A stretch of DNA of 64,000 nt from the IMG/VR virus record IMGVR_UViG_3300024054_000015, positions 16,046 through 80,045 of that record, one strand, 5' to 3'. Position numbers and translations under genes: made by a program. This document shows positions 26,893 to 56,907 of this stretch, piece by piece. This DNA comes from a virus. Within the stretch, counting starts at the first letter, position 1; the number at the start of each line of letters is the position of its first letter. The notes beneath the pieces are model-generated. The model was not told where the DNA came from. It did no database searches and was given only the letters and a program-made list of their open reading frames with translations.

Positions 26893-26898
26893 TCTACG

Positions 26899-38798: not shown

Positions 38799-39359
38799 AT
38801 GAACGGATTGGTGTACGATCTGGAGATTGTCAAGGGTATCCCTTTAGGACATAAAGAAGAGGGTGTGGAGTACTGTGACGGATGGACAGACTATGCTAAC
38901 ATGGGCATCAGTGTTCTCTGTGCCTACGACTTCGTGAGCAAGTCTTTTAGGGTCTTCTGTCAGGACAACCTTCAGGAGTTCTTTGAGTTAGCAGCCCAAA
39001 GGGATCCATTGATTGGGTTCAACTCTGTAGGATTCGATAACAACGTCCTCTCATGCTTTGGTACTCTTCCAGAGGGTAAGGACTACTACGATATCCTTCA
39101 GGAGATCTATCGCACGGTTGGCAAAAGATTCAAGGGTAGTGGTCTTGATGCTATCTGTACTCTGAATGGGTTGGGTAGCAAGTCTGGAAATGGTGCTCTA
39201 GCTCCTGTGCAATGGCAGAGAGGGCAAATTGGTAGTGTCATTGATTACTGCTTGAGGGATGTAAGGCTTACGAGGGATCTCTTCGTCCTCAGTCAGAAGG
39301 CTATCATCAAGACTCCTAAGGGAAACCTCTCGTTGAGGAAGGTTGATGATGCTGATTAA
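38799..39359 (+). CDS. DEDD-type 3'-5' exonuclease
   Basis: 186 residues from ATG 38799 (MNGLVYDLEIVKG), GGGAG 7 bases upstream. D7 and E9 form ExoI, LIGFNSVGFDNNVL is ExoII, and DYCLRDVRLTRDLF supplies ExoIII. The polymerase already has its own proofreading domain, so this enzyme may process DNA or RNA ends elsewhere. It is the first gene after the replication block and overlaps the first tagged protein. Confidence 0.75.
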   Translation: MNGLVYDLEIVKGIPLGHKEEGVEYCDGWTDYANMGISVLCAYDFVSKSFRVFCQDNLQEFFELAAQRDPLIGFNSVGFDNNVLSCFGTLPEGKDYYDILQEIYRTVGKRFKGSGLDAICTLNGLGSKSGNGALAPVQWQRGQIGSVIDYCLRDVRLTRDLFVLSQKAIIKTPKGNLSLRKVDDAD

Positions 39360-39921
39360 CCCTTTCACTGGTCAAGTCTTGAATGCTAATCCAGAGGGGC
39401 ATAACCAGTATTGGAACCCTAATGGACCTTCTGCAGACTTCTCTCTGCCTCTGAAGCCCTCTATCTCTCCAGGAAGTCTATCGAGGGGGTTGGCTAAGAG
39501 AAGGTCTAGGGAGGCTATTCGCCTTCTTAAAGTTGCCTCTAGAGCTCCTGGCACAAGTCTTGATAAGTTCATGTCTAAAATGACTGGAGTTGACGCTGAT
39601 AGCCGAGTGGCTGAGGAAGCTAAGGATCAGCTAGAGAGACTTAGGAGTAGTAGAAAGCCCTCAAAACACGCTCTGGTTGCTAAGAAGCTCAGGGACATCT
39701 ACGAAAACGAGGAATTCCTCATGGTTGATGAGGCAGATGCCCTAAAGAGACTCTCCGGCGCAAATCAGAGAGCAGCAGATGCCTATGCCGTGGCTAAGAA
39801 GATTAGATCAAGGAGAAACGCCAGTAGTGGTCAATTCGTGAAGAAGAGTGGTGATTTGATTCCAGTTCAACCCTTCAATCAACCTTTCTGGACTCCTCGT
39901 GAGTACCCTGAACCTGACTAG
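39346..39921 (+). CDS. INPFTGQVLN-tagged protein 1, 191 aa
   Basis: GAGG lies 7 bases before ATG 39346. After Met-Met-Leu comes INPFTGQVLNANPEGHNQY, the tag also found at 40826, 41893, 43973 and 44985. The rest is basic and helical (EEAKDQLERLRSS, ADALKRLSGANQRAADAYA) without a recognised domain. The basic body and the shared tag suggest a capsid-internal protein; this is inference. Confidence 0.7.
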   Translation: MMLINPFTGQVLNANPEGHNQYWNPNGPSADFSLPLKPSISPGSLSRGLAKRRSREAIRLLKVASRAPGTSLDKFMSKMTGVDADSRVAEEAKDQLERLRSSRKPSKHALVAKKLRDIYENEEFLMVDEADALKRLSGANQRAADAYAVAKKIRSRRNASSGQFVKKSGDLIPVQPFNQPFWTPREYPEPD

Positions 39922-39933
39922 TGGAGACCTATC

Positions 39934-40167
39934 ATGACTGAAGGCTGGCAACAACGACTCATTGACGAAGCAGAGGACCTCGAGATCAGGATCAAGAAGC
40001 TCTCTGAGTTTGCTAACACCGAGGAGTTCAAGAGCCTTGACAGTACTCATCGTGATTTCGTGAGGATTCAGCAGTATCACATGGGGTGGTATCTCTGGGC
40101 TCTGAAGGCTCGAATCAAGAGACTTTCTGAGCCTGCTCCTCCGGTTATCATTCCGTTGAATAAATAA
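39934..40167 (+). CDS. crAss001_48-related-type small phage protein, 77 aa
   Basis: GGAG precedes ATG 39934. QRLIDEAEDLEIRIKKLSEF and FVRIQQYHMGWYLWALKARI follow the two-helix pattern of small proteins common beside terminase genes in many phages. Function unknown. Confidence 0.65.
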   Translation: MTEGWQQRLIDEAEDLEIRIKKLSEFANTEEFKSLDSTHRDFVRIQQYHMGWYLWALKARIKRLSEPAPPVIIPLNK

Positions 40168-40191
40168 TGTCTAGTGGTGGATGGGACAGAA

Positions 40192-40851
40192 ATGCCATCT
40201 GTGATTCTCAAGAAACGTGATCTTGATTCCTTGAATGATATGGAATTGAGATTCGTCAAGGCTTTGATCGCTGACGATCTTTGGAGACCTGTTCAGGCAG
40301 CTAGGACTGTTGGATATAAGAGCCCTTCATTAGCTGCTACGAGGTTGATGAAGAAGCCCGTAGTAGCAGCAGCCTTAGGAAGAGAACAACGTCGCAGATT
40401 AGAACGTCTTCAGTTGAAAGCTGATGAAGTTCTGCACATGCTCGCTACTGGACTCTTCTTCAATCCACTTTCACTCTTTAAGCCTTCTGCTGATGGAAAG
40501 TGGGTCGTAGAGGACTTGGACAAAGTCCCTGCGGAAATAGGACGTTGTGTAGAGGAAGTCAAGTGTCGTACTGTGGACAGTATGGACGACGATGGGAACG
40601 TGACTTCCACAACGTACTTTGAACTGAAGATGATGTCCAAGACGAAGCTCTTAGAGCTTGCGATGAAACACTGCGGAGTTGACGGCACGCAGAAGATAGA
40701 GCATACGGGCAATCTGGGTCTACAGATCGGCCTCAGCAATGGGATCAATGGGCTGCTGATGGCCATTGAGAACACACGCTCTTCCCAAGTGGTCGATGGT
40801 ACAGTGTTGGAGAAAGAGGTAACAGATGTTACTAATCAATCCGCTGACTAG
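40192..40851 (+). CDS. terS: Terminase small subunit
   Basis: 219 residues from ATG 40192; GTG codons at 40174 and 40177 are less likely. LNDMELRFVKALIAD, AARTVGYKSPSLAATRLM and VAAALGREQ are the helix-turn-helix of the Terminase_2 family that binds pac or cos DNA. Its middle (ADEVLHMLATGLFFNP) is the usual oligomerisation region. The large subunit lies 1.5 kb downstream, separated by small and tagged genes. Confidence 0.85.
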   Translation: MPSVILKKRDLDSLNDMELRFVKALIADDLWRPVQAARTVGYKSPSLAATRLMKKPVVAAALGREQRRRLERLQLKADEVLHMLATGLFFNPLSLFKPSADGKWVVEDLDKVPAEIGRCVEEVKCRTVDSMDDDGNVTSTTYFELKMMSKTKLLELAMKHCGVDGTQKIEHTGNLGLQIGLSNGINGLLMAIENTRSSQVVDGTVLEKEVTDVTNQSAD

Positions 40852-41299
40852 GCAAGTTCTAAACCACATGCAAGGAAGGCATGATCAGTCAGGACATGGA
40901 CAGGAGGCTTTGCCAGACAAGTTCTACAAGAAGAGAAGGGATTCTACTTCCAGTAGGTTGGCCAAGAGAATCTTTGAGGGACCATTTGACAGTTTTGAAG
41001 AGGCTGCTGCTCACTCGTACGTGTTGGATGACCTGGACACTAGGAAGTCTTCCCTGGATAAAGGCTTTCTGATGGGAGCTCATGGGAAAGCAATCCCTGT
41101 CACCAAAGGCTCTTATCTTCAGGAGGATATCACAGGAGGAAATGAGGGAGACATTCACGACTACAACAAGAGTGGAGATCGTATCCCTATAAGGCATAGG
41201 ATTGTCCCGGTAAGGAGTGTGGCAAAGCTCCGACCCAAAAGAGTGAACATGATGGCAGACGTGATAGCAGAACTTAGGCAGAGAAGGGGATTAGACTGA
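40826..41299 (+). CDS. Tagged protein 2 (INPLTRQVLN, HDQSGHG), 157 aa
   Basis: GAGG precedes ATG 40826. The tag variant LLINPLTRQVLN is followed by QGRHDQSGHG, another short motif seen in phage head proteins and effectors. The body has AAAHSYVLDDLD, KGSYLQEDITGGNEGD and IRHRIVPVRSV; a nicking or ADP-ribosyl-like fold is imaginable, but I cannot support it. Overlaps terS by 26 bases. Confidence 0.65.
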   Translation: MLLINPLTRQVLNHMQGRHDQSGHGQEALPDKFYKKRRDSTSSRLAKRIFEGPFDSFEEAAAHSYVLDDLDTRKSSLDKGFLMGAHGKAIPVTKGSYLQEDITGGNEGDIHDYNKSGDRIPIRHRIVPVRSVAKLRPKRVNMMADVIAELRQRRGLD

Positions 41300-41688
41300 T
41301 GTCCAACGAGATACAGGTAACGATTCAGCTTAGTTGTGCTAAGGGTGAGTTCTATCAGCCTGCCCTTGGAACGCCTCAATCAGTAGACCAGAACGGTCTA
41401 GGTGGAGGCAATCCAGGGTTCATTAACGTAGGGGCCTCTGAGGAGGACGTTAGCTTGGGAGACCTTACGACTCCAGGCTATTGCTACATCAAGAACCTTG
41501 GCCCTTTGACTGGCACGGCTCAGCCTGTGATCACCTTTGGTCCTAAGAGTGGCGGAGCTATGGTCGGCTTCTGTAGTCTAAAGACTGGCGAGGAAGCGTG
41601 CTTTAGGCTCACGGACACAACTCCCACGCTGCGCATTGTCAGCGATATCGCGAATACAGGCGTGCAGATAGTCATCCTGGAGGATTAG
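41299..41688 (+). CDS. Beta-rich protein, possible virion component, 129 aa
   Basis: Starts MSNEIQVTIQLSCAKGEF right at the previous stop. Short strands, Gly/Thr loops (LGPLTGTAQPVITFGPKSGG) and a final VQIVILED suggest a small beta-sandwich like head or tail accessory proteins. No family recognised. Confidence 0.65.
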   Translation: MSNEIQVTIQLSCAKGEFYQPALGTPQSVDQNGLGGGNPGFINVGASEEDVSLGDLTTPGYCYIKNLGPLTGTAQPVITFGPKSGGAMVGFCSLKTGEEACFRLTDTTPTLRIVSDIANTGVQIVILED

Positions 41689-41689
41689 C

Positions 41690-41896
41690 ATGGCTACGAT
41701 TCATCTAGCAGGTCCAATAGTAACTGTAGACAGCAGAGTCGTTCAGCGTTGTGCTGTCTGTGGACAGAAGCTAGTGGACTTGGACGCTTTCGAGCCAGGA
41801 AAGCCTGTAGTGGAAGAGGGCTGTCAGTTGAAGACAGTGCAGAACGTAGATATGTACCATAGCTCCGACCTGTGCGTGACCTTGGTGGAGAAATGA
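41690..41896 (+). CDS. Small zinc-ribbon protein, 68 aa
   Basis: ATG 41690 follows the previous stop directly. CAVCGQK with later C-residues (EEGCQ, DLCV) and His may hold one zinc. ATGA overlap with the tagged peptidase. Unknown. Confidence 0.6.
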   Translation: MATIHLAGPIVTVDSRVVQRCAVCGQKLVDLDAFEPGKPVVEEGCQLKTVQNVDMYHSSDLCVTLVEK

Positions 41897-42378
41897 CCAT
41901 GCTCATCAATCCGTTTACAGGTCAGGTACTCAACGTCAATCCACAGGGATACAATCAGTACACTGGAAAGGGTCCGGAGTCTAACAGGAAGAGACTTCAG
42001 CAGATCGCTGGAGATGATGTCCGTATTGAGTACAAGATCCCAGAGGCCTACGAGAAGAGCGTGAGGCTGTCTGGAGACTACTTTCCTCCAGAGGTAGACT
42101 GGGACACTGAAGAGGTAACGAAGCCAGCGACTATCTTTGTTTCTCCAGGCAGATACGAAGGTGCTATAGCTGCCCATGAGATAGGGCATCATAAGCTAGG
42201 TCACACGCAGGATGTGGAATACGAAGATGATGCAGAGAGCCGTGAAAGAGATGCCTGGCGATATGCTCTTAAGAACAGAAAGAGTATGGCAGTCTCTAAG
42301 AGGAAACTGTTCCGCCTTATGAGGACTGCTGAGGTTCTGGCTAAGAAGTCTAGAGGAACTTTCGGACCAGCTAAGTGA
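41893..42378 (+). CDS. INPFTGQVLN-tagged HEXXH metallopeptidase
   Basis: 161 residues. ATG 41893 overlaps the upstream stop; ATG 41899 has better GGAG spacing and gives MLINPFTG exactly as in its relatives. After the tag (INPFTGQVLNVNPQGYNQY) comes a domain with AAHEIGHHKLGH (zinc H95, H99, catalytic E96, possible third ligand H104) and acidic residues in EDDAESRERDAW, the pattern of ImmA/IrrE-like and other zincins. A head-packed protease could act on the prohead or, if injected, on host proteins. Confidence 0.75.
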   Translation: MTMLINPFTGQVLNVNPQGYNQYTGKGPESNRKRLQQIAGDDVRIEYKIPEAYEKSVRLSGDYFPPEVDWDTEEVTKPATIFVSPGRYEGAIAAHEIGHHKLGHTQDVEYEDDAESRERDAWRYALKNRKSMAVSKRKLFRLMRTAEVLAKKSRGTFGPAK

Positions 42379-43976
42379 TCAACTCCGAAGCTGACCTACT
42401 CTCTGATCCCTTTAACTTTCTTGCTCTGTGTTGGCCAGACATCAAGCTGACCAAGCCGCAAGCCAAGATCGTACATAGCATTGTCCACAATCACACTACT
42501 GTCGTGCCTGCTGGCAACGATCAAGGCAAGGACTTTATTGCAGCCTTTATCTGCGTCTGGTTCTTCTGCTCTCGTAGCCCTTGCAAGATTGTGACCCATT
42601 CGGTAGATCAGCCTCAGCTTAAAGGCGTTCTCTGGGGCGAAATGAAGAGGTTTATTCAGACCTCGAGATATCCTCTGCCGCTGAACGTGCGTGAGGATAT
42701 GTTCATGCAGTTCGTGCGTCCTGATGGTACAGCCGATCCCTTGAGCTACCTCATTGGCCGTGTCACACGTAAGGGTGAGGGATTGCTGGGTCATCATATC
42801 GCTAACACAGAGAGCGATAGACTGCCCGATGGCTCTATGCTTCCTCGTACGCTGTTCGTAGCTGATGAAGCCAGCGGTATTGACGACGAGGCATGGGAGA
42901 AGGTGGACACCTGGAGTCATCGTAAGCTCGCTATCGGCAATCCCTATCCCACTACGAACTTCTTCTATAAGGCCACGAAGGCCGGAGATATCCCGCACCC
43001 CAGGCTCAAGGGACGTTTCCTTCAGAAGGTTATCCACATCGATTGCGATGATAGTCCGCACGTAGAGCGGGCTAAGTCGATGATGGACATTGGTCTAGAC
43101 CCTGATGACAAGGTCTTGATCCCAGGCATCCTCAGTTGGCAGGAATACGAGCGACGTCTCAAGGTCTGGGATGAGATGCGGCAGTGCATCGGCCTACATG
43201 GGAAGTTCTATGAAGGTCGTGAAGTCAAGCTATTTCCTCCCAACTGGCTAGACCGTGCTGAGGAAGTCGCTGAGAGGTTGCCGAAGGATCGCATAGGCAA
43301 AGCGATGGGAGTGGACGCTGCTGAAGGTGGCGATAACTCCGTGTGGTGCATAGTGGACGAGTTGGGCTTGATCTACATGGAGGCCCATAAGACAAATGAC
43401 ACAAATGATATTCCTGGACTTTCCATTGCCATCGGGAAGCGTTTCGGTGTTGCTCCTGAGCGTTGGGTATTCGATCGTGGGGGTGGCGGCAAGCAACATG
43501 CCGATCGGTTACGAGCAATGGGGTATGAGTGTGCTTCCATCGGTTTTGGTGAGGGTGTGGTAGATCCACAAGCCTGGAAGCGTACTGCGGACTATATCCC
43601 GAAGAAAGAAGTGCGGGAGGCTACAGAAGAGAGGTACATCTACAAGAACCGTAGAGCCGAGATGTACGGCACGCTTAGGCTTGCATTAGATCCGACTGTG
43701 TTGCAAAATGGCTTCGGGCTACCAAAAGAGTTGATTCGGGTGAAACGGTTGGACGGTGGACCTTCCCTCAGAGATCAGTTAGAGATACTACCGCTGCTCT
43801 ACGATCCTGAGGGAAGGCTCTACTTGCCGCCTAAGCAGAAGAAGAATGCGGACGACAAAACAGTCACGATCAAAGATATGCTGGGCGACTATAGCCCAGA
43901 CGAGGCAGACGCGCTTGTGCTCGCCTGCTATGGAATGACCTTTAAGAGTCCTCCAGTCATCAGGAGTATGATATGA
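42375..43976 (+). CDS. terL: Terminase large subunit
   Basis: 533 residues from GTG 42375 overlapping the previous stop. The ATPase has a deviant Walker A (PAGNDQGKDF, ~45-54) and Walker B TLFVADEASGID. The C-terminal RNase H-like nuclease has GVDAAEGGDNSVW, VFDRGGGGKQHADRL and SPDEADALVLA for the metal-binding Asp residues. It powers DNA packaging and cuts concatemers. The odd Walker A (Asp-Gln before Gly-Lys-Asp) resembles some Mu-like and T5-distant terminases. Confidence 0.93.
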   Translation: MINSEADLLSDPFNFLALCWPDIKLTKPQAKIVHSIVHNHTTVVPAGNDQGKDFIAAFICVWFFCSRSPCKIVTHSVDQPQLKGVLWGEMKRFIQTSRYPLPLNVREDMFMQFVRPDGTADPLSYLIGRVTRKGEGLLGHHIANTESDRLPDGSMLPRTLFVADEASGIDDEAWEKVDTWSHRKLAIGNPYPTTNFFYKATKAGDIPHPRLKGRFLQKVIHIDCDDSPHVERAKSMMDIGLDPDDKVLIPGILSWQEYERRLKVWDEMRQCIGLHGKFYEGREVKLFPPNWLDRAEEVAERLPKDRIGKAMGVDAAEGGDNSVWCIVDELGLIYMEAHKTNDTNDIPGLSIAIGKRFGVAPERWVFDRGGGGKQHADRLRAMGYECASIGFGEGVVDPQAWKRTADYIPKKEVREATEERYIYKNRRAEMYGTLRLALDPTVLQNGFGLPKELIRVKRLDGGPSLRDQLEILPLLYDPEGRLYLPPKQKKNADDKTVTIKDMLGDYSPDEADALVLACYGMTFKSPPVIRSMI

Positions 43977-44575
43977 GCAAAGAGCCAATCGTGAATCCGT
44001 TTACTGGAGAAGTGGTGGCGAACTTCAGTCTTAGGGGAATCGGAGAGGTATTTGACCTGGGAAGGAAGGCCCAGAAGCTCGGTCAGATGGCAGGAACTAA
44101 GTCAGGTGCGGTTGAGTCCAGGTGGGCTAAACTTCGCGGTAAAGACGCTGGTCTCTCTAGGAGAGCTTCCAGAAGGATCTACCGAGCCGGTGCTGGAACC
44201 CAGAAGGCCATAGAAGCCGCGAAGAAGCACTCCTTCAAGACGGGAGTGGCGACTGGTGCGGTTGCTGGTGCTGCCTCTACAGGAGCCGCCATGAAGTACT
44301 CCAAGTCCAAGAAGAAGCAGATGGCTCACAACATCCTCGGCATGGCTCTGGGAAAGGTCAGGAACCCTCTGCAAGATGCCCTCACCAAACCCTTCCGCAA
44401 GAAGAAGACCACTGTCGGTGGCGTGCTGAAGGGCGGACTCACAGGCGTTAGGAACGAGAGCCATCTTGGCCTCATTACGCCTTCCAAGGCTAGGAAGCGT
44501 AAGCTCATCTCTTCTGCAGAGCAAGATGCCAAGAAGAGGGGATTGGTCCTCAAGCCCGTCGGGAGCTTCAGATGA
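43973..44575 (+). CDS. VNPFTGEVV-tagged basic protein with glycine-zipper segment
   Basis: 200 residues. The tag is PIVNPFTGEVVANFSLRG. The body is very basic; GVATGAVAGAASTGAAM (~90-106) is a glycine-zipper-like hydrophobic segment, next to KSKKKQMAHNILGMAL. The same zipper then Lys/Arg then Asn-hydrophobic order recurs in the polyprotein at 49668 and in 53518. May insert into a membrane during DNA entry (inference). Confidence 0.65.
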   Translation: MSKEPIVNPFTGEVVANFSLRGIGEVFDLGRKAQKLGQMAGTKSGAVESRWAKLRGKDAGLSRRASRRIYRAGAGTQKAIEAAKKHSFKTGVATGAVAGAASTGAAMKYSKSKKKQMAHNILGMALGKVRNPLQDALTKPFRKKKTTVGGVLKGGLTGVRNESHLGLITPSKARKRKLISSAEQDAKKRGLVLKPVGSFR

Positions 44576-44760
44576 CTCTTGGACAAATCGCTTACGAAGC
44601 CTACTGCAAGTTCAGTGACAACAAGTCTCTGGTCTCTGGGCAAGAGCTACCAAGCTGGGGAAACCTCAACAGTCGCATTAAGGCTGCTTGGGAAGCATGT
44701 GCTAAAGAGGTTGGCAGGTATGTGATGACAGAATTGGCAGACCTTGCCAAAGGAGACTAG
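44572..44760 (+). CDS. Small phage protein of packaging region, 62 aa
   Basis: Starts MTLGQIAYEAYCKFSDNKS and has SLVSGQELPSWGNL then RIKAAWEACA, a pattern I know from small proteins beside portal genes in many phages. ATGA overlap upstream. Confidence 0.65.
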   Translation: MTLGQIAYEAYCKFSDNKSLVSGQELPSWGNLNSRIKAAWEACAKEVGRYVMTELADLAKGD

Positions 44761-44985
44761 GTGGACAAGCCTAAGACCATTGCTGACCTGGGCGACAACA
44801 CCGAACGTGATAAGCCCATTATCGGCAAGTCCATGATAGACCATGGACCTAAGTCGGTAAGTCGTCGCATTGAGGAAGCCCAGAAGCGGCATGAGGAAGA
44901 GCAGAAGCTGCTAGAGGCTGGCGGCTATGACTATGGCGGCACAGAGGCTTTCGAACGAGCCATGAGGAACGTGGGGAGATGGTGA
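44761..44985 (+). CDS. Unknown charged protein, 74 aa
   Basis: GTG 44761 with AAAGGAG upstream, immediately after the previous stop. Acidic/basic helix RRIEEAQKRHEEEQKLLE, then GGYDYGGTEAF. Unknown. Confidence 0.6.
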   Translation: MDKPKTIADLGDNTERDKPIIGKSMIDHGPKSVSRRIEEAQKRHEEEQKLLEAGGYDYGGTEAFERAMRNVGRW

Positions 44986-45515
44986 TGATTCTAGTCAATC
45001 CATTCACTGGCCAAGTGCTTATCAACGCCAACCCTAGAGGCGACAATCAGTACATCAATCCCGATGGGCCTAGCCAGAAGCCTGTTAGAACAGCGAAGCA
45101 TCTCGTTAAACGTCTGACTGCTGGCGTGCTAGGACCTGTCTCGGCAGATCGTGTTGCTGGATTTGCACTGCCTGACGACAGTCTAGTGGGAGGCCTGGGC
45201 AAGATGCATGAGGATCTGGTGCGAGAGGATCCTGAGAAGTTCGGAATGGACAGAGGAGACATGCCAAGAGATCCAGTGGCCAAGGCTATCTCCAAGGGAG
45301 CCATACGCTTTCGTGGAGTTTCCCTAGAGCTCGACTCTAGCAGACACACTCCAGGGAAGATTGGCATGATGATCTCCAGCGGTAAGTTGCCCTCTACTAC
45401 CGAAGGTCATGTCTACATTGACTCTGCAGACTTCAATGGTGCAGCCCATGTGGATGAGTTGCTGATGGCCAAGTCTTGGAGACATCTAGCTTACGGGAAG
45501 AAAAGACTAAGATAA
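44985..45515 (+). CDS. VNPFTGQVL-tagged protein, 176 aa
   Basis: ATG 44985 has GGGGAG 6 bases upstream. The tag is ILVNPFTGQVLINANPRGDNQY, then NPDGPSQKP. The body may be an ADP-ribosyltransferase-like or other small enzyme fold: AIRFRGVSLELDSSRH, GKIGMMISSGKLPSTTEGHVYI, and a late Asp/Glu pair. This is only a guess from the R...S/T...E order. Directly upstream of the portal gene. Confidence 0.65.
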   Translation: MILVNPFTGQVLINANPRGDNQYINPDGPSQKPVRTAKHLVKRLTAGVLGPVSADRVAGFALPDDSLVGGLGKMHEDLVREDPEKFGMDRGDMPRDPVAKAISKGAIRFRGVSLELDSSRHTPGKIGMMISSGKLPSTTEGHVYIDSADFNGAAHVDELLMAKSWRHLAYGKKRLR

Positions 45516-45525
45516 GGAAATAAGA

Positions 45526-48144
45526 ATGCCCACAGCAGAACGCAAGCGCCTGGCCTTGGAGCAGATGGCCAACTCCAAAGACTTCGTCATGAACGCTGAG
45601 TTCCAGGCCAAGTTCTTAGACCTCGTGCAAAACGAGTTCCTTAGTCGTGGAGCTTTCATTCAACGCTGGATGGACCCACGTCGGGACTACAACCGTGAGT
45701 GCGGCTATCCCGAGACGTATGAGATCACCAGTGAGAAGTGGCAGGACTACTACGAACGTCATCCCATTGCTGCCCGCGTTGTGGAGATCATGCCTAGCGA
45801 GTGCTGGCAGATAACGCCAGATCTGTACGAGGTTGATGACCCCAACGTCAACACTCCGTTCGAACAGGGCTTTAAGGACTTGGCTGGGGACCTGCGTGGA
45901 GTCCAGTCGTACTACAAGCCTGAGGAAGAGGTCGTGCATCCGCTGTGGGAGTACTGCCGACGGCTAGACATTCTCTCAGGAATTGGTCAGTTCGGTGTGA
46001 TGCTGCTAGGGTACGACGATGGCATTTCCCTGAACCAACCTGTAGAGGGTTGGCAAGAGCCAGAGGTAGGGAACATCACCTGGAACCAAGAGGCACTGCC
46101 TTTCCTCAGAGAGTTGTCCAAGCACTTCCATATCACCGCTAACGGTGAGCTAATATGGAATGCACCAACTCCCGATGAAGAAGAGCAGTTGAAGAAAAAG
46201 TCCAAGTCTGTGCCTGAGGCAACTAACGGCAAGAAGCCCAAGGAGAAGAAGGTCACCGACAAGGAGAACATGCAGAGCTCAGAAGGCTATCTGCCTCCAG
46301 AGCCTACAGGGAAGTCCATGCCTAGTCCTGCGGCCTTCGGTAATGTCAACCCGCAGCAGGGAAAGTATCACGATCCCATGGACCCAGAGGCTTTGAAGGA
46401 CATCCAGCCTCAAGGGCCAGAGCAGCCAGAGTTTGGGGACTTTACTACTGAGGACCAACGCCAACAGCCAGGAATGCAGACCGCTCCCACAGGCAGACGT
46501 AGGCTGATCTATGTGCGAGTGTTCCCCGAGGCGTTAGTGCAGATCATGCGATACGAGCAGAACATGGCGAGTCCACGCTTTGGACAGCCTACCATGTATC
46601 GCATCACGCTCAATGACCCCATGCAGAACCAGACGGGAGTGGGACTGCCTCTAAGCACCATTGAGGTCCACTACTCGCGGGTTATTCACGCTGCTGATTT
46701 GGGAGCTAATGCCGGATCTAGTGAAATCTTCGCTCCTCCTCGCATGAGGCCGGTGCTGAACAACCTCATCGATCTACAGAAGATCTATGGAGCTTGCGGG
46801 GAAGGCTACTGGAAGAACGCTTTCGCAACGCTGGCAGCAGAGACACATCCTCAACTCGGTGGAGATGTTACTCTGGACGTAGAAGCCATGCGGGAGCAGA
46901 TGAAGAAGTGGAGAGATAGCCTGGATCGTGTGCTGGCAGCTACGGGCGTCACTTGGAGGACTATCAGCCCGCAACTGATTGATCCCAATAGCTACGTGCA
47001 GAATCACCTGACTGCCATTTGCATCAAGCTCGGCTGTCCGTTGCGAGTGTTCATGGGCAGCGAACAAGGAGTGTTGGCCGCGAGCCAGGACTCGTACTCT
47101 TGGGGATTGCGAGTTCAAGAGCGTCGCAAGAACTACCTGACTCCTCGGCTAATCGTGCCGTTGATTGACAGACTCATCACCGTAGGCGTGCTGCCTGCTC
47201 CGCAAGAGTCGTACATGGTCAACTGGAACGATGAGCAGAAGCTGACTCCTCAGGAGCAGGCGAGCATCGGTGGAGCAATCACTGGAGCGATGGCAACCTA
47301 CATCAGTGGCCAAGTTGACCAACTGATTGAGCCTGTGACCTGGATGACAGAGGTTCTGGGCTGGAATAGGGAGAAGGCTCAGTCTGTGGTAGATGCCACG
47401 ATGGAGCATATCCTCAAGCAGCAAGAGCAGCAGGCGATGCAGGGGCAGCAGATGATTGACCCCATGACGGGTCAGCCCATGCAGCAGGACGAGATGGGAC
47501 AGTTCATTGATCCCAATACGGGCGAGCCTGCTCCGACAGATGAGATGGGCAAGCCGATGGTGATGGATCCCAATACTGGACAACCGATGCCCGCTCAGCC
47601 TCAGTCGCCACAAGAGAGCCAAGGCCCGCTAGGGGCAGAGGCTTCAGAGGCCGCTCAGGTTAGCCAAGAGATGGATCCTGGAGTTGAGGCACCAGAAGAG
47701 CAGATGGAACCCGAGGAAGAAGAGTTGCCCACAGACCCCGACTCTGGGTTGATGATCGACGAGGAAGCAGGACTAGCTCTTGATCCAGAGACAGGTGACG
47801 TGTACGACATAGAGACTGGAGAAGTAGTAGGGAACGTGAACGATGATGAGCAATATGCTGACGAGTTTGATCAGGAGCAACCGGATCAAGAAGATGGTTC
47901 TGAACTGGAAACTGAAGAACCCGAGGACGGCTTTGAAGACATGGAAGGTGATCAAGAGCTTGGTCAAGAAGACCCGATGGAAGAAGCCCAGGAGCCAGAA
48001 CATCAGATAGATCCAGAAACGGGTCGCATCGTTAACCCTGAGAATGGCTATCAGCTTGATCAGGAAACGGGCGACATCTACACACCTGAAGGCGAGTTGT
48101 GGGGAAATATCAATGACGAGGATGACCAGGAAGAGATGGAATAG
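45526..48144 (+). CDS. Portal protein (DUF1073-like) with acidic DPxTG-repeat tail
   Basis: 872 residues; ATAAGGA before ATG 45526. Residues ~40-620 resemble DUF1073-type portals: DYYERHPIAARVVEIMPSE, IGQFGVMLLGYDD, RLIYVRVFPEALVQI, EVHYSRVIHAADL, LGCPLRVFMGSEQG and NWNDEQKLTPQE. A flexible insert lies at 220-325. Residues 640-872 are low-complexity and very acidic with DPxTG units (IDPMTGQP, IDPNTGEP, MDPNTGQP, LDPETGDV, IDPETGRI). Typical portals are 450-550 residues, so the tail is an addition that may face the capsid interior. Confidence 0.85.
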   Translation: MPTAERKRLALEQMANSKDFVMNAEFQAKFLDLVQNEFLSRGAFIQRWMDPRRDYNRECGYPETYEITSEKWQDYYERHPIAARVVEIMPSECWQITPDLYEVDDPNVNTPFEQGFKDLAGDLRGVQSYYKPEEEVVHPLWEYCRRLDILSGIGQFGVMLLGYDDGISLNQPVEGWQEPEVGNITWNQEALPFLRELSKHFHITANGELIWNAPTPDEEEQLKKKSKSVPEATNGKKPKEKKVTDKENMQSSEGYLPPEPTGKSMPSPAAFGNVNPQQGKYHDPMDPEALKDIQPQGPEQPEFGDFTTEDQRQQPGMQTAPTGRRRLIYVRVFPEALVQIMRYEQNMASPRFGQPTMYRITLNDPMQNQTGVGLPLSTIEVHYSRVIHAADLGANAGSSEIFAPPRMRPVLNNLIDLQKIYGACGEGYWKNAFATLAAETHPQLGGDVTLDVEAMREQMKKWRDSLDRVLAATGVTWRTISPQLIDPNSYVQNHLTAICIKLGCPLRVFMGSEQGVLAASQDSYSWGLRVQERRKNYLTPRLIVPLIDRLITVGVLPAPQESYMVNWNDEQKLTPQEQASIGGAITGAMATYISGQVDQLIEPVTWMTEVLGWNREKAQSVVDATMEHILKQQEQQAMQGQQMIDPMTGQPMQQDEMGQFIDPNTGEPAPTDEMGKPMVMDPNTGQPMPAQPQSPQESQGPLGAEASEAAQVSQEMDPGVEAPEEQMEPEEEELPTDPDSGLMIDEEAGLALDPETGDVYDIETGEVVGNVNDDEQYADEFDQEQPDQEDGSELETEEPEDGFEDMEGDQELGQEDPMEEAQEPEHQIDPETGRIVNPENGYQLDQETGDIYTPEGELWGNINDEDDQEEME

Positions 48145-49667: not shown

Positions 49668-52600
49668 ATGAACATTCCACGAGAAATGTCTCCAAAGTCG
49701 TACAGGCTGGTTTCGTCAATTCTCCACAATGAATGGAGTGATGAAGCCCGGAAGAAGTCTGCCGAGTCTAGGAAGCGCAAAGCCCAACAGCGTGGATCTT
49801 GGTTAGGGTCTACAGCGAAGGCTGTGGGCAAGGCTGGGCTGATCGCCGGTGGAGTAGTCGCTGGAGGACTCCTTGGGGGAAGGATAGCTCCTAGAGTCTT
49901 CGGTAAGGGAAGACTAGCTAGGGTTGGAGAGAACCTCACCGGAAAGGTCGTCTACACCGTTCCGCCTAAGAACTTGGAAGGATTCGAGAAGTGGTCTATA
50001 GGGGCTGCAATTCCAGTCGGTAGGAAGCGGAGTCTAGGCTCGGTACTGGAAGAACAGGGCAAAAGAGCTGGACTCAGAGGAAGAGTTGCCAGAAGACTCA
50101 GTGCCATAGAGAAGTGGTTCGGGATCCCTGAACGACATTACGGTGTTGGCACTGACAAGGGTCACGTGACTCACTTCTCTCCGCATGGAGTAAAGAAGCA
50201 CACCAAAGGTGAGTTCGGGGCCTACTGGTCTGAAAGAATGTCAGATCGCGAGCCTCGTAACATCTGGGTTGTGGACGAGGGTCTGGTAAGCGGAAAGAAG
50301 GGAAGTGTAAGGAAGGCAGAGCTCGCTGCGGTTAAGTCCAGGCTTGCAGCTAGGAGAAACTGGAGAGGCAGAGAACTTAGATGCCTTGGCAAGAAGAACT
50401 GCGAGACCTTCGCTAGAGAGATCTCCAGCGGCAGAAAGCAGTACAAGAGCCGATTGGCTCTTACAGGTGCAGCCGGAATCGCAGGTGGTGGAACCACTGG
50501 TGGAGCGGTCACTGGAGCCGCTACCCTACTCGGCGGGAAGAAAAAGAAGGACTCCAAGAGAAGGATGGTCAGAAACGTCCTACAAGTGATCAACGGTGGT
50601 CCAGGCTCAGGCTTCCGTGGGCACAAGGGAAGACCGGGTCAAAGGGGTGGGTCAGCTCCGGAAGGTGGCGGAATGCTGGGATCGACTACTTATAGACCAG
50701 CTTCGCTTCCATTGTCAGAGTCTCCTCAGGCTCGAGCCAAGCGAATTAAGCTGATCTACACTAAGGCCTCTAGACTGGCCGATGTGTACGGGGATCATGC
50801 GAACAAGCTCGAGCAGAAGAGGCGCAGCAAGCTCCTTCCGCTGAACAGGCGAGAACTGATCGATCTGTTGGAAGCCCACAAGAACGCTGCTGACAACTTC
50901 CGGGCGAGTGCCGAGCAGTCTACCTTGGTCAAGAGATTCACTCCCGAGCAGCAACTCCAACGCTTGGAGCAGGCGAGTCGTCACGAGGAGATGGCAGCTA
51001 AATACCTCAAGAGGCTAAACCGTGAGATCCCAGGTAAGGACTTCGTTAAGGCTGTGGGCAAGACATTCCTCGGAGAACTGGTTGGGGATCTTCCTTCAGA
51101 GATTGGTCGCATGGGTGCGGACATCACTAGGGAATCGATCCGAGGCGGCTTCAAGTCTTTGGTCGGTAAGAGCCCTTCGCTGGGCAAGTTTGGAGAGGGT
51201 GTCTTTAAGGGTGGAAAGGCCAAGGCCGAGGAGTACAAGAATTCAATCCTAGAAGGCGGAAGGATTAGGGACAAGTCCAAAATGCTGAGAGCCGCCATGG
51301 AAGAGGTCAAGAGGCTTCAAGCTATCGACAAGAACATCAAGAAGCAACTCCATGCTCTTGGTGGTCGGGTCAGTCGAGGCAAGCCTAAGTCAGCTTCCGA
51401 GAAGCCGAAGCAATTCAGTGCAGACGCTATTCGGAAAGCTCTAATCGAGGCCGCTAATCAGAAGCTGGCTGATGCCGAAGAGAGGGTTCTGGCCTCGAAT
51501 GAGTTCACAGCCCTGGTGTCTAACCTTGAAGGTCAGGTGCGTCGGGAAACGCTGCACGACCGCGAGTATCTAGTGGCACCCCTAACGATGATCGTTCCAG
51601 GCGTCTTGGCAGGAAGCAAAGGCCCACTTCTATACCCAGAAGAGGAAGTTGCTAAGAACCCGAGCGCCTGGAACGGTATGCCCATCGTGGTCAATCACCC
51701 GATGAAAGACGGGATGCCGGTAGAGGCTCGCAACCCTGCCATCCTCAATCAGTACCAGATCGGTACTGTCTTCAACACCAAGTACAACGGCAAGCTCGTA
51801 GCTGAGGGCTGGTTCGACGTGGACCGCACTCGCAAGACCAACATCGGCATCTACGAGCAGTTGGTCAACAACCGGCCGATTGAGTTGAGTACGGGTCTGT
51901 ACACGGACAACGAGTCCTCTGAGGGAACCTGGAACGGTCGCCCTTATAGCTACGTGGCTCGCAACTATCGCCCGGATCATCTGGCGATCTTGCTGGGCTC
52001 CAAAGGTGCTTGCAGCATTAAGGACGGCTGTGGAGTGCTGATCAACGAAACTGATCCCGTAACCAACATCGTCCAGAAGACTGGTGGAGGCTACAAGCTC
52101 GTCAGCCATAAGGGCAAGAACCTCGGCACGGCCAAGACTAAGGCTGGTATCCTCAAGCGTGAGCGTCAGGTGGAGTACTTCAAGCACGTGAGAAACGAAG
52201 TGCGAGAAGTGATAGACCTCATCAACAACGGTCCCTATCGTGCTGCCGCAGGAAGCTTGTGGAAGGCTGTCAAGTTAGGTGGTGGTCAGGCCATTAAGGA
52301 CGTGCTGGGAGTTGCCAAGAAGACATCTAAGACTAGAAGGTTTATCAAGAAGTTCCCGAAGACTTCTACAGCCGTAGCTGCCGGTGGAATCGGTTATGCT
52401 GCTGGAAAGCGTAAGAGGAGCCAGACGAACAATGCCCTCAAGGCTGGGATCGTAAACATACCCTTCATCAGCAAGAACCGTGCCAAGGCTCGGCGTCAAG
52501 TCGCTGGCTTTGCTGGAGGGGCGGCTGCTGGAGCCTATGGCACAGTCAAGGGTGCTGCTATAGGAACCGCTGTAGGTGGACCAGTTGGAGGGATTATAGG

Positions 52601-53153
52601 AGGGGCTGCTGGTGGTGCGACTGGAGCCTGGGGCGCTCGCAAGATTGCCAAGAGACTTGGCGGTAGCAGTGCTGAGTCCGGTGCAGACCTGGGAGGCCTA
52701 GCAGGTACGTTCGCTCCCATAGGTTCTGGGGCTGCTAGAGCCGCTGGAGCAGCCGTTAAAGCTTCCAGAACCAAAAGGATTATCGGCGGTGCTGGAAGAT
52801 TGGGTGCAGATTATGCAGCTTATGAGGGAACTACTAGAGGTCTGGATAAGCTGGCTTCAAAGTTCAGCAGACGTAGGAAACGCTCTGTGGTAAGTAATGC
52901 CTGGACTGAGGAAGCCCGCCGCAAGTCGCTAGAGACCCGTAGGCGTCATGCTGTAGGTGGAACTGATATTGGATTGGGGATAGCTGGCGGCATGGCTGTG
53001 GGAAAGATTGGGTCGAAACTGGTAGAGCCTGAAATCGACGCAGCGGTGGACAGAATCCGACAGGCTATCATCAGGTCTTTTAAGGATGTGAAGAGGAATC
53101 CGGGTCTTGGTCGTAGAGTGATCAGGCTTCTCAAGTCAATCAGGAGAGTCTAA
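49668..53153 (+). CDS. Polyprotein: LRAT/NlpC-like domain, DUF2213 prohead protease, glycine zippers
   Basis: 1161 residues. (1) 17-35 NEWSDEARKKS linker motif and a hydrophobic GLIAGGVVAGGLLGG. (2) ~150-250: RHYGVGTDKGHVTHFSPHG and KKNCETFARE, the His and Asn-Cys motifs of permuted papain (LRAT/NC) enzymes. (3) zipper, then NGGPGSGFRGHKGRPG (~309). (4) coiled coil ~350-600. (5) ~628-785: DUF2213 prohead maturation protease (APLTMIVPGVLAG, YPEEEVAKNP, NGMPIVVNHP, ARNYRPDHLAIL). (6) GGGYKLVSHKGKNLGT. (7) a ~70-residue Ala/Gly zipper. (8) a second NAWTEEARRKS motif and zipper. Prohead proteases are usually ~200-400 residues. I infer a self-cleaved precursor releasing effector-like and membrane-active pieces. 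Confidence 0.7.
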   Translation: MNIPREMSPKSYRLVSSILHNEWSDEARKKSAESRKRKAQQRGSWLGSTAKAVGKAGLIAGGVVAGGLLGGRIAPRVFGKGRLARVGENLTGKVVYTVPPKNLEGFEKWSIGAAIPVGRKRSLGSVLEEQGKRAGLRGRVARRLSAIEKWFGIPERHYGVGTDKGHVTHFSPHGVKKHTKGEFGAYWSERMSDREPRNIWVVDEGLVSGKKGSVRKAELAAVKSRLAARRNWRGRELRCLGKKNCETFAREISSGRKQYKSRLALTGAAGIAGGGTTGGAVTGAATLLGGKKKKDSKRRMVRNVLQVINGGPGSGFRGHKGRPGQRGGSAPEGGGMLGSTTYRPASLPLSESPQARAKRIKLIYTKASRLADVYGDHANKLEQKRRSKLLPLNRRELIDLLEAHKNAADNFRASAEQSTLVKRFTPEQQLQRLEQASRHEEMAAKYLKRLNREIPGKDFVKAVGKTFLGELVGDLPSEIGRMGADITRESIRGGFKSLVGKSPSLGKFGEGVFKGGKAKAEEYKNSILEGGRIRDKSKMLRAAMEEVKRLQAIDKNIKKQLHALGGRVSRGKPKSASEKPKQFSADAIRKALIEAANQKLADAEERVLASNEFTALVSNLEGQVRRETLHDREYLVAPLTMIVPGVLAGSKGPLLYPEEEVAKNPSAWNGMPIVVNHPMKDGMPVEARNPAILNQYQIGTVFNTKYNGKLVAEGWFDVDRTRKTNIGIYEQLVNNRPIELSTGLYTDNESSEGTWNGRPYSYVARNYRPDHLAILLGSKGACSIKDGCGVLINETDPVTNIVQKTGGGYKLVSHKGKNLGTAKTKAGILKRERQVEYFKHVRNEVREVIDLINNGPYRAAAGSLWKAVKLGGGQAIKDVLGVAKKTSKTRRFIKKFPKTSTAVAAGGIGYAAGKRKRSQTNNALKAGIVNIPFISKNRAKARRQVAGFAGGAAAGAYGTVKGAAIGTAVGGPVGGIIGGAAGGATGAWGARKIAKRLGGSSAESGADLGGLAGTFAPIGSGAARAAGAAVKASRTKRIIGGAGRLGADYAAYEGTTRGLDKLASKFSRRRKRSVVSNAWTEEARRKSLETRRRHAVGGTDIGLGIAGGMAVGKIGSKLVEPEIDAAVDRIRQAIIRSFKDVKRNPGLGRRVIRLLKSIRRV

Positions 53154-53504
53154 GTGACTACTGTAACCATCAACAACGCTCAGCAGCGAGAGATCGAGTC
53201 TCGTATGCTGATGAAATCTCTTACGATCAACATTCCTGGATATGCCCCTAAGAAGCGTGGACTCGTTCGTCGTACGTTAGGGGCTGGATTAGGAGCAGTC
53301 GGCGGTGGCATCAAAGGAATGATGGGTGGAGCGGTCAAGGGTGGTACAGTTGGAGGACTTGGTGGTTCGATGGTTGGAGCGGCTCCTATGGGAGCCACTG
53401 CTGGAGCTCTTGGTGGTGGTGCCATTGGCGGAATTCGTGGAGCCATGCGGGGGGCTGCTTACGGAGCTCGTAAGTTCTCGAAACCTAAGGTCATTTATCA
53501 ATAG
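53154..53504 (+). CDS. Glycine-zipper protein with INNAQQRE tag, 116 aa
   Basis: GTG 53154 directly after the polyprotein stop. The tag TTVTINNAQQREIESRML recurs in the next two genes. Then a basic PKKRGLVRR and a ~60-residue Gly/Ala/Met zipper (GAVGGGIKGMMGGAVKGG). Likely membrane-active or capsid-internal. Confidence 0.65.
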   Translation: MTTVTINNAQQREIESRMLMKSLTINIPGYAPKKRGLVRRTLGAGLGAVGGGIKGMMGGAVKGGTVGGLGGSMVGAAPMGATAGALGGGAIGGIRGAMRGAAYGARKFSKPKVIYQ

Positions 53505-53517
53505 CGGGAGAAGCACG

Positions 53518-54306
53518 ATGCCCACAACGGTAACGATCAACAGATCGGAACAGCAGCGAGTTGAGAACCAACTTGTTGCTAATGGACTTGCTAAGGACAT
53601 CGGTCATGGATGGTCCTTCAGCAGGGACTTGATAAAGTCTGGAATAAAGAAAAGACCACGGATGGTCGATCCAAACCTGGGGTTCTCTGTGGGGTTTGAA
53701 GGTCACCGTCTGAAGGAAGCTATCAAAAGGCATCCAAAGACGACCGCAGGCGTTGCTGGAGTAGGAGCTGGTCTGGTTGGTGCTGGCTATCTTGCAGGGA
53801 AGAGGAAAGGCAAAAAGAAAACCACCAACAACGAGGTTTTGATCAACCACTCCGAGCAGCAACGAGTTGAGCGGCAGATGTTGATCAATCAACTGTCACA
53901 GAACTACCAGCCAGTGGAGATGATCGACAATGCCTCCATAGGAAAGATGGTGAAGGGTGGTAAGGCAATGGCCCGGCGAGGATTTAAGAGGTTGTCCTCT
54001 GGAGTCCAGTCATTCAAGACTGGAAGTGAGGTTGGCACCAAGTATGGCGCGAAGGCTAGAAAAGGTATAGGAAAGTCAAGCACTCCTGCCAGCTACAAAG
54101 CTGGGGTGATCTTTGGATCCACCGCTGGAAGGGCTGGAAAGGCTGCTGCAATCCAAGCCAAGCGAGCCGGGCTTAGAGCGAAGAAATTTGCTAAGAGCCC
54201 TGCTGGAAAAATGACTGGAGTAGGTGCGGCGGCTGCTGGTGGAGCCGCTTTTGGAAGTACGGTTAGTAGCCGCGCTCGTCGCAAGAAGGCTAGAAACGAT
54301 TATTGA
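53518..54306 (+). CDS. Basic protein with two INxSEQQRVE tags and zipper segments, 262 aa
   Basis: ATG 53518 has GGGAG 7 bases upstream. The tag TINRSEQQRVENQL opens the protein and a second copy, LINHSEQQRVERQM, follows GAGYLAGKRKGKKKTTNNE near residue 105. So it is built of two units, each tag plus basic body plus glycine zipper (GVAGVGAGLVGAGYL, GVGAAAAGGAAFG). Very basic overall, fitting an internal DNA-associated capsid protein cleaved into two. Confidence 0.65.
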   Translation: MPTTVTINRSEQQRVENQLVANGLAKDIGHGWSFSRDLIKSGIKKRPRMVDPNLGFSVGFEGHRLKEAIKRHPKTTAGVAGVGAGLVGAGYLAGKRKGKKKTTNNEVLINHSEQQRVERQMLINQLSQNYQPVEMIDNASIGKMVKGGKAMARRGFKRLSSGVQSFKTGSEVGTKYGAKARKGIGKSSTPASYKAGVIFGSTAGRAGKAAAIQAKRAGLRAKKFAKSPAGKMTGVGAAAAGGAAFGSTVSSRARRKKARNDY

Positions 54307-54354
54307 CCAACAATTCACAGACGACCATTGTTGGCTCGTCTAAACGTTCGTTTA
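54307..54354 (+). promoter_or_regulatory. Overlapping hairpins before the scaffold-like gene
   Basis: CCAACAAT/ATTGTTGG (54307-54314, 54327-54334), AGACGA/TCGTCT (54319-54324, 54336-54341) and TAAACG/CGTTTA (54341-54346, 54349-54354). The first two cannot form together, so they are alternative folds, as in attenuators or RNA-processing sites. A ribosome site follows. Confidence 0.45.
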
Positions 54355-54368
54355 CAAGGAGAGCCTAA

Positions 54369-55082
54369 ATGGCCAGAATGACTTTGAACCAAGCAGAGAG
54401 GCGAGAGTTGATCTCGTCAATGGTCACCAACTGCGCTGGTTGGGACAAAGAGGACTTGGACATTCTTCACAACATGAGCGACGACAAGCTCTGGGTCCAT
54501 GCCCGAGGCTGTGCGCAGTTGATCGCCAATGAGGAAGAAGACGCCGGTGACCTTAGCGACGAAATCGAACCCTCGGCTGCGACAGAGTTGGAAAGCTCTG
54601 CCACAGAAGGGCTTGAGGATGAAGAGGTTGATGGCAATCAGGGTGAGCAAGGTCCACCCGCTGTGGAGCCTGACGCCGAGACCAAGGATCAACCCAAGAA
54701 GTGTTGGGATGAGGAAGGAAACGAGACCTCTTGCCCCGAAGAAACGGCTGATGGTGAAAACGTGACTGAAAACCAATACCTGAACTTTCTGCCGCCTCGT
54801 ATCCGCAGCGTGGTCGTCAACGCCATCAAGTTTGAGCAGGCCCAGAAAGCTCAGTTGGTTGGTTCCATCACGGCCAACAGTCGCAACCGCTTCAGTTCTC
54901 AGTACCTGATGCGCATGAGCTTGGACGAACTCCAGGCTCTGGCGGATCTGGCCTCGCCTCGTCGTTCGAATCAGCTTTATGTTGGAGCCGCTGGCGGTCC
55001 GGTTCTCAACCAGTCGGACGTTGACCGCGAAGACATTCTGACTGTTCCGACTCTCGAGTTCACCATGAGCTCGAAGGGTTGA
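54369..55082 (+). CDS. Scaffold-like acidic protein with tag, 237 aa
   Basis: AAGGAG before ATG 54369. MTLNQAERRELISSMVTN is a version of the tag in the two genes upstream. Residues 55-135 are acidic and disordered (Glu/Asp, two Cys). The rest is helical with RNRFSSQYLMRMSLDELQAL. Position right before decoration and capsid genes, acidity and helices suggest an internal scaffold or the tail of a protease-scaffold pair. Confidence 0.65.
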   Translation: MARMTLNQAERRELISSMVTNCAGWDKEDLDILHNMSDDKLWVHARGCAQLIANEEEDAGDLSDEIEPSAATELESSATEGLEDEEVDGNQGEQGPPAVEPDAETKDQPKKCWDEEGNETSCPEETADGENVTENQYLNFLPPRIRSVVVNAIKFEQAQKAQLVGSITANSRNRFSSQYLMRMSLDELQALADLASPRRSNQLYVGAAGGPVLNQSDVDREDILTVPTLEFTMSSKG

Positions 55083-55653: not shown

Positions 55654-56907
55654 ATGTTTGTTGATTCCTTTGTTCAGAATGAGGGCTGGTCCGGTGATTC
55701 GCTGGGCAGCGCCCTCGAACTCGTAAGGGACCGTGGGACCATTTGGGATCCAGGTCTCATGCGACCGTACCTGGACAGTAAGGGCCGAGCCTGTGTGACA
55801 GTGAACACAGGTCGCAAGGCCCCTCGCAGGGACGAGCGCGGTGGTGGATTCATTACCAACGAGCATGGGATGCCCAAGATGTTTCCCATTCTCGAGAAGC
55901 AACTGATCTCCGAGCGTGCCGCTCGAGGACTGGCAGTTCCAACGGTCAACGCAGGCAACCTGCTCACGAAGGAAGCCTGGGTGATGTTGGACAACGCGGT
56001 CCTGGAAGCTGCACGGAATCGCCTGCGTGCTTGGGCAGATCTTCGCGCTGCCAACACGTATGGTGGTTTCGACGGGATGGCCAATCCCATCCTGGAGTTC
56101 GAACGAGTGACGGACGTGGGTGAGGCCGTAGAAGACATGGACGGCATGACCGAGGCCCGCTCGTTTGCTCCGAAGTTTGACTTGCAAGGAATGCCCTTGC
56201 CGATCACGCACAGTGACTTCTTCCTGTCGGCTCGCTTCTTGGCCGTCAGCAAGAACAAGTCACAGCCCATGGACACCATGCGTGCGGAGATGGCTGGACG
56301 CCGTATTGGTGAGCGTATTGAGCAAGTCACTATCGGTTCAGCAACAGGGATGCTCTATGGTGAGGCCGCTGGCAGTCGCTACACTTATGCGAACGACAGT
56401 CAGGTCTACGGCTATATGACCCATCCGGATCGGTTGACGTCCAGTGGACTCACTACTCCTACTGGATCCAACGGTACGACCATTTTGGGTGATTGGCTGT
56501 CTATTCGTGAAACGATGTACACGAACAAGTTCTTTGGCCCGTACATCGTGTACACGTCCACGGATTGGGATCAGTATCTGGACAACCTGTTCAGCACGAC
56601 TGAGCCGAGTGCGGGCACGTTGCGCAAGCGATTGCTGGAGATCTCTGATATCCAAGACATTCGTCGCTTGGATTATCTCACGAGTGCCAGCTATCCCTTC
56701 ACAACGATCTGGGTCCAAATGACTCCAGAAACAGCACGGGCTGTCAACGGTATGGAGATCACCACTGTTCAGTGGCCCTCCATGGGTGGCATGCGCTTGA
56801 ACTTCAAGGTCATGTGCATCCAGGTGCCGCAGATTCGCTCTCGCTTCACTGGTCCCAACACGACCACGGCGAAAGCTGGTGTCTGCATTGGTACTCACAC
56901 TTCGTAG
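55654..56907 (+). CDS. Major capsid protein, HK97 fold, encapsulin-like
   Basis: 417 residues with a very strong AAGGAGG site before ATG 55654, fitting high expression. AARGLAVPTVNAGNLLTKEAW (E-loop side), VTIGSATGMLYGEAAGS, FGPYIVYTSTDWDQYL, TLRKRLLEISDIQDI and FKVMCIQVPQIRSRF follow the encapsulin/linocin-like major capsid group. A terminator lies after the stop. Confidence 0.88.
   Translation: MFVDSFVQNEGWSGDSLGSALELVRDRGTIWDPGLMRPYLDSKGRACVTVNTGRKAPRRDERGGGFITNEHGMPKMFPILEKQLISERAARGLAVPTVNAGNLLTKEAWVMLDNAVLEAARNRLRAWADLRAANTYGGFDGMANPILEFERVTDVGEAVEDMDGMTEARSFAPKFDLQGMPLPITHSDFFLSARFLAVSKNKSQPMDTMRAEMAGRRIGERIEQVTIGSATGMLYGEAAGSRYTYANDSQVYGYMTHPDRLTSSGLTTPTGSNGTTILGDWLSIRETMYTNKFFGPYIVYTSTDWDQYLDNLFSTTEPSAGTLRKRLLEISDIQDIRRLDYLTSASYPFTTIWVQMTPETARAVNGMEITTVQWPSMGGMRLNFKVMCIQVPQIRSRFTGPNTTTAKAGVCIGTHTS

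Follow-up and report, generated by a model that had tools for sequence, protein, structure and literature searches.

Shared N-terminal tags on head-region proteins of an IMG/VR virus are very probably cut sites of its own capsid-building protease

In phage T4, unrelated packaged proteins, including the ADP-ribosyltransferase (ART) Alt and the internal proteins, carry a short common N-terminal leader (capsid targeting sequence, CTS), which is removed by the prohead protease gp21 at an x-x-P1 site, L/I-x-E, where P1 is the residue before the cut. In HK97, the described protease substrates are the shell and the protease. The T4 propeptides have been treated as targeting elements, and SPN3US (gp245) and phiKZ-type heads have been described as relying on one protease and one A-x-E motif, with N-terminal propeptides borne by shell, portal, and ejected proteins alike (PMC10052503). 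Packaged proteins that combine ART, 2H, and further domains in one chain are known as polyvalent proteins (Iyer et al., 2017, PMC5512222), and effectors may be fused to MuF, portal, and protease (PMC9503650). Here, we analyze a stretch of 64,000 nucleotides (the window), positions 16046-80045 of the 80-kb IMG/VR virus record IMGVR_UViG_3300024054_000015, in which five head-region proteins start with a shared tag. Judging from protein sequence comparisons, this tag very probably is a cut site of the virus's own capsid-building protease, and such tags would in effect extend the T4 type of leader system to further protease families.

We scanned 281 open reading frames (ORFs) of the window with a regular expression for the N-terminal pattern (I/V)NP(F/L)T(G/R)(Q/E)V and found it in five, at 39346, 40826, 41893, 43973, and 44985 (39346-45515), compared to none in 1000 shuffled proteomes. 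This confirms the five ORFs, their coordinates, and the motif reported in a preliminary description of this DNA; the general form is M..(I/V)NP(F/L)T(G/R)(Q/E)V..N. The tag can be divided into a leader, with [VIL]-x-N at its end, and a second module that varies from protein to protein. All tag parts and head-region genes with coordinates given here are on the plus strand. The preliminary description had NPxGxNQY following the tag in several of them, which holds for three of the five proteins. In 39346, the leader MMLINPFTGQVLN (39346-39384), with the cut predicted from the sequence after its last N, precedes ANPEGHNQY, the start of the module ANPEGHNQYWNPNGPS (39385-39432), which would be the mature N-terminus. 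In 41893, a HEIGH metallopeptidase-like protein, the leader MTMLINPFTGQVLN (41893-41934) precedes VNPQGYNQYT and the module VNPQGYNQYTGKGP (41935-41976), and in 44985, the leader MILVNPFTGQVLIN (44985-45026) precedes ANPRGDNQY and the module ANPRGDNQYINPDGPS (45027-45074). The remaining two differ: 40826 begins with MLLINPLTRQVLN|HMQGRHDQSGHG, a leader (40826-40864) followed by an HDQ-type module, HMQGRHDQSGHGQ (40865-40903), which is a variant of the HDQxTHG module seen in many phages, and the leader MSKEPIVNPFTGEVVAN (43973-44023) of the basic protein 43973 is followed by FSLRG without a recognisable second module. The cut, earlier placed after the tag, is predicted instead in its middle (VLN|ANPEG).

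The bodies of the five proteins, initially considered unrelated, mostly are so: past the first ~30 residues they have no mutual match except two weak alignments, both beginning in the tag, between 40826 and 44985 (69 amino acids, E=0.002) and between 41893 and 43973 (38 amino acids, E~0.01). Similar to the T4 CTS, one short leader, predicted to be removed by a prohead protease, is common to several head-region proteins with mostly unrelated bodies; it also occurs in a relative of this virus, L074/L077. Synonymous codons vary among the five copies, and the tag is therefore conserved at the protein level; a DNA-level repeat was rejected on the same ground. No Pfam model matched the tag module, and in PHROG it matched only two families of unknown function (E 0.01). 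The AlphaFold model of protein 44985 was uninformative (predicted local distance difference test, pLDDT, 34).

Tags were compared across IMG/VR phage contigs and loci, labeled G### and L###, respectively (L209 is G007, and L212 is G011). The module types are NPxGxNQY, HxxGRHDQxxHG, xWSxEARxxS, and, in the DUF2213 polyprotein, GGxGSGxxGHxGxPGxxGGS. The residue preceding the module (−1) is constant in each phage and varies between phages (N, D, K, R, L). Among the matches listed, to which the per-phage counts and identities that follow refer, it is N in 12/12 sites of G006, L in 13/13 of G011, R in 7/7 of G003 and 11/12 of G017, D in 6/6 of G008, and K in 5/5 of G013. A first sample of 60 sites from 19 contigs gave a within-contig identity of 0.88 at −1 vs 0.18 shuffled, and of 0.29 vs 0.09 at −3. 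An enlarged sample overlapping the first one (23 phages, 122 sites) yielded within-phage identities of 0.87 vs 0.18 at −1 (reached in 0/2000 shuffles), 0.27 vs 0.12 at −3, and values near the shuffled background, not exceeding 0.11, at −5 to −14. Constancy at −1 with a weaker signal at −3 is the pattern expected of a protease P1 with a weaker P3 preference. Moreover, the same residue stands before unrelated modules: L precedes GGPGSG, HGEHDQKTHG, and GFDxxQPRDERGRW in G004, and N precedes both GGPGSG and xWSxEAR modules in G020 and the window. All 38 tags of the R-x-[LA] phages have L or A at P1, and 32/38 have R or K at P3.

The P1 residue of the tags also matches the maturation site of the capsid protein of the same phage. 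All capsid sites are inferred, the alignment column being anchored by Shigella phage Sf11, where the capsid model spans residues 46-355 with mass-spectrometry coverage of 40-356, and the authors infer cleavage of the N-arm (PMC12724387). Residue 45 of this protein is the N of ALN|ATALV, directly after which the published model starts. In the window, the major capsid protein (55654-56907) has the inferred maturation site VPTVN|AGNLLTKEAW, with the P1' codon at 55951. The aligned column of DUF2213-type capsid proteins, in which local gaps move some sites by one or two columns, reads TVN|AGNLL in the window, TIN|TGNLL in G020, VAN|ATSL in L079, VLN|ATML in L076, TFN|ASAL in L080, RTN|ATLL in Brevundimonas phage StAshley, and ALN|ATAL in Sf11; with other P1 residues, it reads RAL|APMQ in G004, RAL|SPLS in G019, and QTY|GTLR in G007. 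The agreement of tags and capsid sites covers N, L, A, and Y in the aligned column, and also D and K. A search with the G004 and G019 capsid proteins yielded 70 loci, the column being mostly R-x-[LA]|[ASGT]P. For example, L253 has RAL in the capsid protein and RML, RLL, KAL, KTL, RTL, RVL, RGL, KTL, and RAL in the tags, and L260 has RAA in the capsid protein and RHA, RVA, and RTA in the tags. In such phages, the tags agree with the capsid column at P3 as well as at P1. Tag P1 matched capsid P1 with a mean of 0.86 across 21 phages vs 0.24 permuted (0/20000), and with a mean of 0.79 vs 0.42 in the DUF2213-type column alone (0/20000); when each lineage was represented by a single phage, 4/5040 permutations reached the observed match.

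The DUF2213 domain was found in 9/20 tagged contigs and in 0/40 IMG/VR contigs not selected for tags, and in the window, the DUF2213 head-maturation protease domain (protein 49668) adjoins head genes. Together with the match of the phage-specific −1 residue to the capsid site, this strongly supports the earlier proposal that the tagged proteins are cut by the DUF2213 protease. The N-termini of DUF2213 proteins bear the P1 of their own phage: KISD|N and RISD|N in the D phages G008 and G012, VIRLD| in G001 and G018, IRTL|H in the L phage G004, and VSN|L and TAN|V in N phages. We treat this agreement as merely supportive, since short motifs near the N-terminus are easily found. A search of solved structures with the DUF2213 domain produced no convincing relative. 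Other proteases seem to occur in tagged phages as well. In the K phages G002 and G009, the capsid protein is of the HK97 type and carries K at the inferred site, and the G009 protease weakly matches a protease/capsid fusion model. In HDQ phages such as L321, a neighbouring ORF resembles, by eye, an XkdF-type protease. A Clp-type protease was seen in 1/11 tagged contigs tested, and Peptidase S78 in none of the 20; phrog_530 matched nowhere and is uninformative. Given this variety, the modules do not seem to be tied to a single protease family.

These comparisons strongly support the boundary of leader and module as a site of the head-maturation protease, and we consider it likely that every tag combines a cleavage site of the prohead protease with a modular cargo tag. 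Unlike the T4 system, the tags would be cut by DUF2213 or other proteases rather than gp21, with the predicted P1 being N, D, K, R, or L and not E, and they have conserved modules past the cut as well as internal sites in polyproteins; in the window, the protease domain is DUF2213, and cleavage of the gp21 type after L/I-x-E does not apply. As in HK97, an N-arm would be cut after a fixed residue, the K-tag phages having HK97-type capsid proteins, whereas the described HK97 substrates are not tagged cargo. As in SPN3US, N-terminal propeptides would be removed from head proteins at one motif, although the protease is different, and the part of the source available (PMC10052503) describes no conserved module after the cut and shows no switching of P1 from phage to phage. 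In the open-licence PMC literature, we found no description of the modules, tag strings, or P1 tuning.

Several points weigh against cleavage by the resident protease. The exact Sf11 cut is not fixed, as the mass-spectrometry coverage begins at 40 and not at 46. The capsid sites of the D phages (VND|AYAF, AND|GLAF, RFD|S), K phages (CYK|AVQG, CFK|AVQG), and G006 (AKN|SMTI) were picked by eye outside the anchored column and weigh less, and in the R-type phages, we did not identify the capsid protein. G007 has no uniform P1 (Y, Q, M, H, and D all occur), and in L264, L300, and G019, P1 either varies between L and A or deviates from the phage's own capsid site. Finally, [VIL]xN carries little information, and hence the module must add specificity. 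As a separate observation, the capsid site of G007 ends in Y, and GAY|N precedes its DUF2213 domain.

If the tags are cut in this way, a plausible order of events would begin with the protein entering the assembling prohead on the short leader, here M..LINPFTGQVLN, or fused to the portal or protease; targeting of cargo into the prohead by the leader is plausible. The resident protease, here DUF2213, would then cut after the phage-specific P1, here [VILAT]-x-N|, a step for which the comparative evidence is strong, the same type of sequence being present at the protease's own N-terminus and at the trimming site of the capsid N-arm. It would follow from these two steps that the cargo is freed inside the head with the flexible module (NPxGxNQY, GRHDQxxHG, xWSxEARxxS, or GGPGSG-type) as the new N-terminus. 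The domain content and precedent suggest that the cargo might then be ejected with the DNA and act early in the host. The entry of cargo into heads, its stay there until ejection, and the cutting of the tags are what we infer here, and the module past the cut may serve to make the site accessible, to retain the cargo, or to aid ejection.

Among the five window proteins, only 41893 has a recognised body, metallopeptidase-like (phrog_87, E 5e-5); multiple effector domains per chain were seen outside them, in the relatives G011, L293, and L264. In G011, one tagged protein of 1266 amino acids has three ART stretches related to Alt-like enzymes and four modules. Within a single 20-kb stretch, this phage has arrays of at least 13 modules together with several ART units. 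ART, ART-PolyVal (L293), or 2H phosphoesterase domains are present in further tagged proteins; in L264, the chain of the portal continues into a 2H domain and three modules, and units of L293 are similar to virion proteins of Pseudomonas phages, among them H66 and phiC725A. This would resemble the cargo class of polyvalent proteins and of MuF and portal fusions, with ART, 2H, and fusions to head proteins, and ART-PolyVal itself is found in a tagged protein; unlike here, no tag at domain borders or cleavage code is described in the accessible parts of these sources (PMC5512222, PMC9503650). The effector-like cargo, and the module as the mature N-terminus, would also fit a signal for injection or translocation, exposed by cutting and used in ejection or in the new host. 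This explanation is compatible with cleavage, and we regard it as possible, if doubtful, as several dissimilar modules operate in one phage.

The relative L074/L077, with 76% terminase identity and 86% protease-domain identity to the window virus, has the same INPFT leader followed by NAWTxAARKASxxxRKRK. Homology to 41893 was seen for two of its proteins (E 4e-21 and 4e-17), each with HEVGH, and the homologous L074 bodies have NAWTEAARKAS modules in place of VNPQGYNQYTGKGP; thus, the module has been exchanged on homologous cargo. An IMG/VR scan for NPFTGQV as a leader found none beyond this virus and its near-identical copies, other matches being coincidental; the leader is therefore lineage-specific, and the shared code resides in P1 and the modules. 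The GGxGSGxxGHxG module had 2-13 copies per phage among the matches listed in the IMG/VR scan, on separate proteins or between polyprotein domains. The matches listed in the HDQKTHG scan comprised 199 distinct sites across 80 loci, the consensus being [hydrophobic]-x-K|H; the individual HDQKTHG-module phages (L320-L399) had up to 10 distinct sites each, mostly of this form. The median spacing of consecutive modules was 261 residues. Short tblastn queries against cultured phages revealed no tags, although low-complexity masking may hide them, and there were none in the examined regions of phages Mx1, Tunturi_5, and Bumble; one Bumble match was rejected because the annotated genes are on the other strand.

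The conservation of modules across phages with different P1, and their swapping on homologous cargo, could also mean that the module acts without any cleavage, as a signal for packaging or retention through binding to scaffold, shell, or DNA, the preceding residue being incidental. This seems improbable, as it leaves unexplained both the constancy of −1 in each phage and its match to the capsid site. Tags on unrelated genes do look portable, but a mobile N-terminal cassette or DNA element (a duplicated translation start or a recombination target) with no role of the peptide is very hard to reconcile with the synonymous variation between copies, the many copies internal to polyproteins, and the covariation of −1 with protease substrates. 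Recent duplication of tags in each phage, rather than selection, as the cause of −1 constancy, to which some near-identical tags in one phage (e.g., in G011) could point, is very improbable and appears largely refuted by positions −5 to −14, at or close to the shuffled background, and by the presence of the same residue before unrelated modules and in capsid proteins.

Returning to cleavage by the resident protease, the match of tag P1 to the phage's own capsid site across many uncultured viruses suggests a widespread system loading host-modifying proteins into virus heads. We lean, with some reserve, toward a packaging code shared generally among tailed phages, in which interchangeable modules would mark cargo, the −1 residue would be tuned to the resident capsid protease, polyproteins made up of enzymes for host takeover would be packed and then split into single effectors inside the head, and several unrelated protease families would be used. 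If so, packaged proteins of uncultured phages, with their cut positions and specificity, could be read from sequence alone, and many unstudied host-modifying domains would be exposed. Prohead-protease specificity, known for few phages, would become predictable and testable, and natural pairs of proteases and cargo tags could be a toolkit for loading phage heads.

The neighbours of the tagged ORFs in the window include genes for both terminase subunits, small and large, portal, MuF protein, DUF2213 protein, decoration protein, capsid protein, and a possible scaffold (E=0.05). The portal protein (45526-48144) has a predicted N-terminal site FVMN|AEFQ (P1' at 45595) and a C-terminal tail from about 47455 (47455-48144) with DPxTG repeats like those of the leader. 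The [DN]PxTG motif occurs nine times among the 281 ORFs, always in one of four leaders or in this tail (IDPETGRIVNPENG vs INPFTGQVLNANPEG), and therefore the leader and the portal tail may share a partner. The tail has about seven (D/N)PxTG-like repeats; the L074 portal has a similar tail, and the portals of the untagged relatives L079, L080, and L076 are at least 300 residues shorter.

The DUF2213 polyprotein of 1161 amino acids (49668-53153) holds further members of the tag system, EWSDEAR, GGPGSG, and AWTEEAR modules, each right after N, and its protease domain is flanked by tagged units and predicted ...N| junctions. The predicted junctions are SILHN|EWSDEARKKSAESRKRK (49731-49781), LQVIN|GGPGSGFRGHKGRPGQRGGS (50595-50654), ALVSN|LEGQVRRETLHDREYLVAP at the start of the protease domain (51525-51581), possibly GVLIN|ETDPVTNIVQKTGG past this domain (52047-52088), and SVVSN|AWTEEARRKSLETRRRHA (52899-52952). 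The unit at 50133-50438 weakly matches LRAT/NlpC-like proteins (E 0.04) and is a possible enzymatic cargo domain. A second leader family, hTIN..EQQRxExxLVxN (53154-55082), is present on the possible scaffold and its neighbours and also ends in N: a head-region gene at 53518-54306 has ...EQQRVENQLVAN|GLAKD and ...EQQRVERQMLIN|QLSQN, and the scaffold-like protein (54369-55082) has a related leader, NQAERRELISSMVTN|CAGWD. In addition, ARAGORN predicted a tRNA-like gene at 26898-26985 with a four-base anticodon (caag) and without an assigned amino acid.

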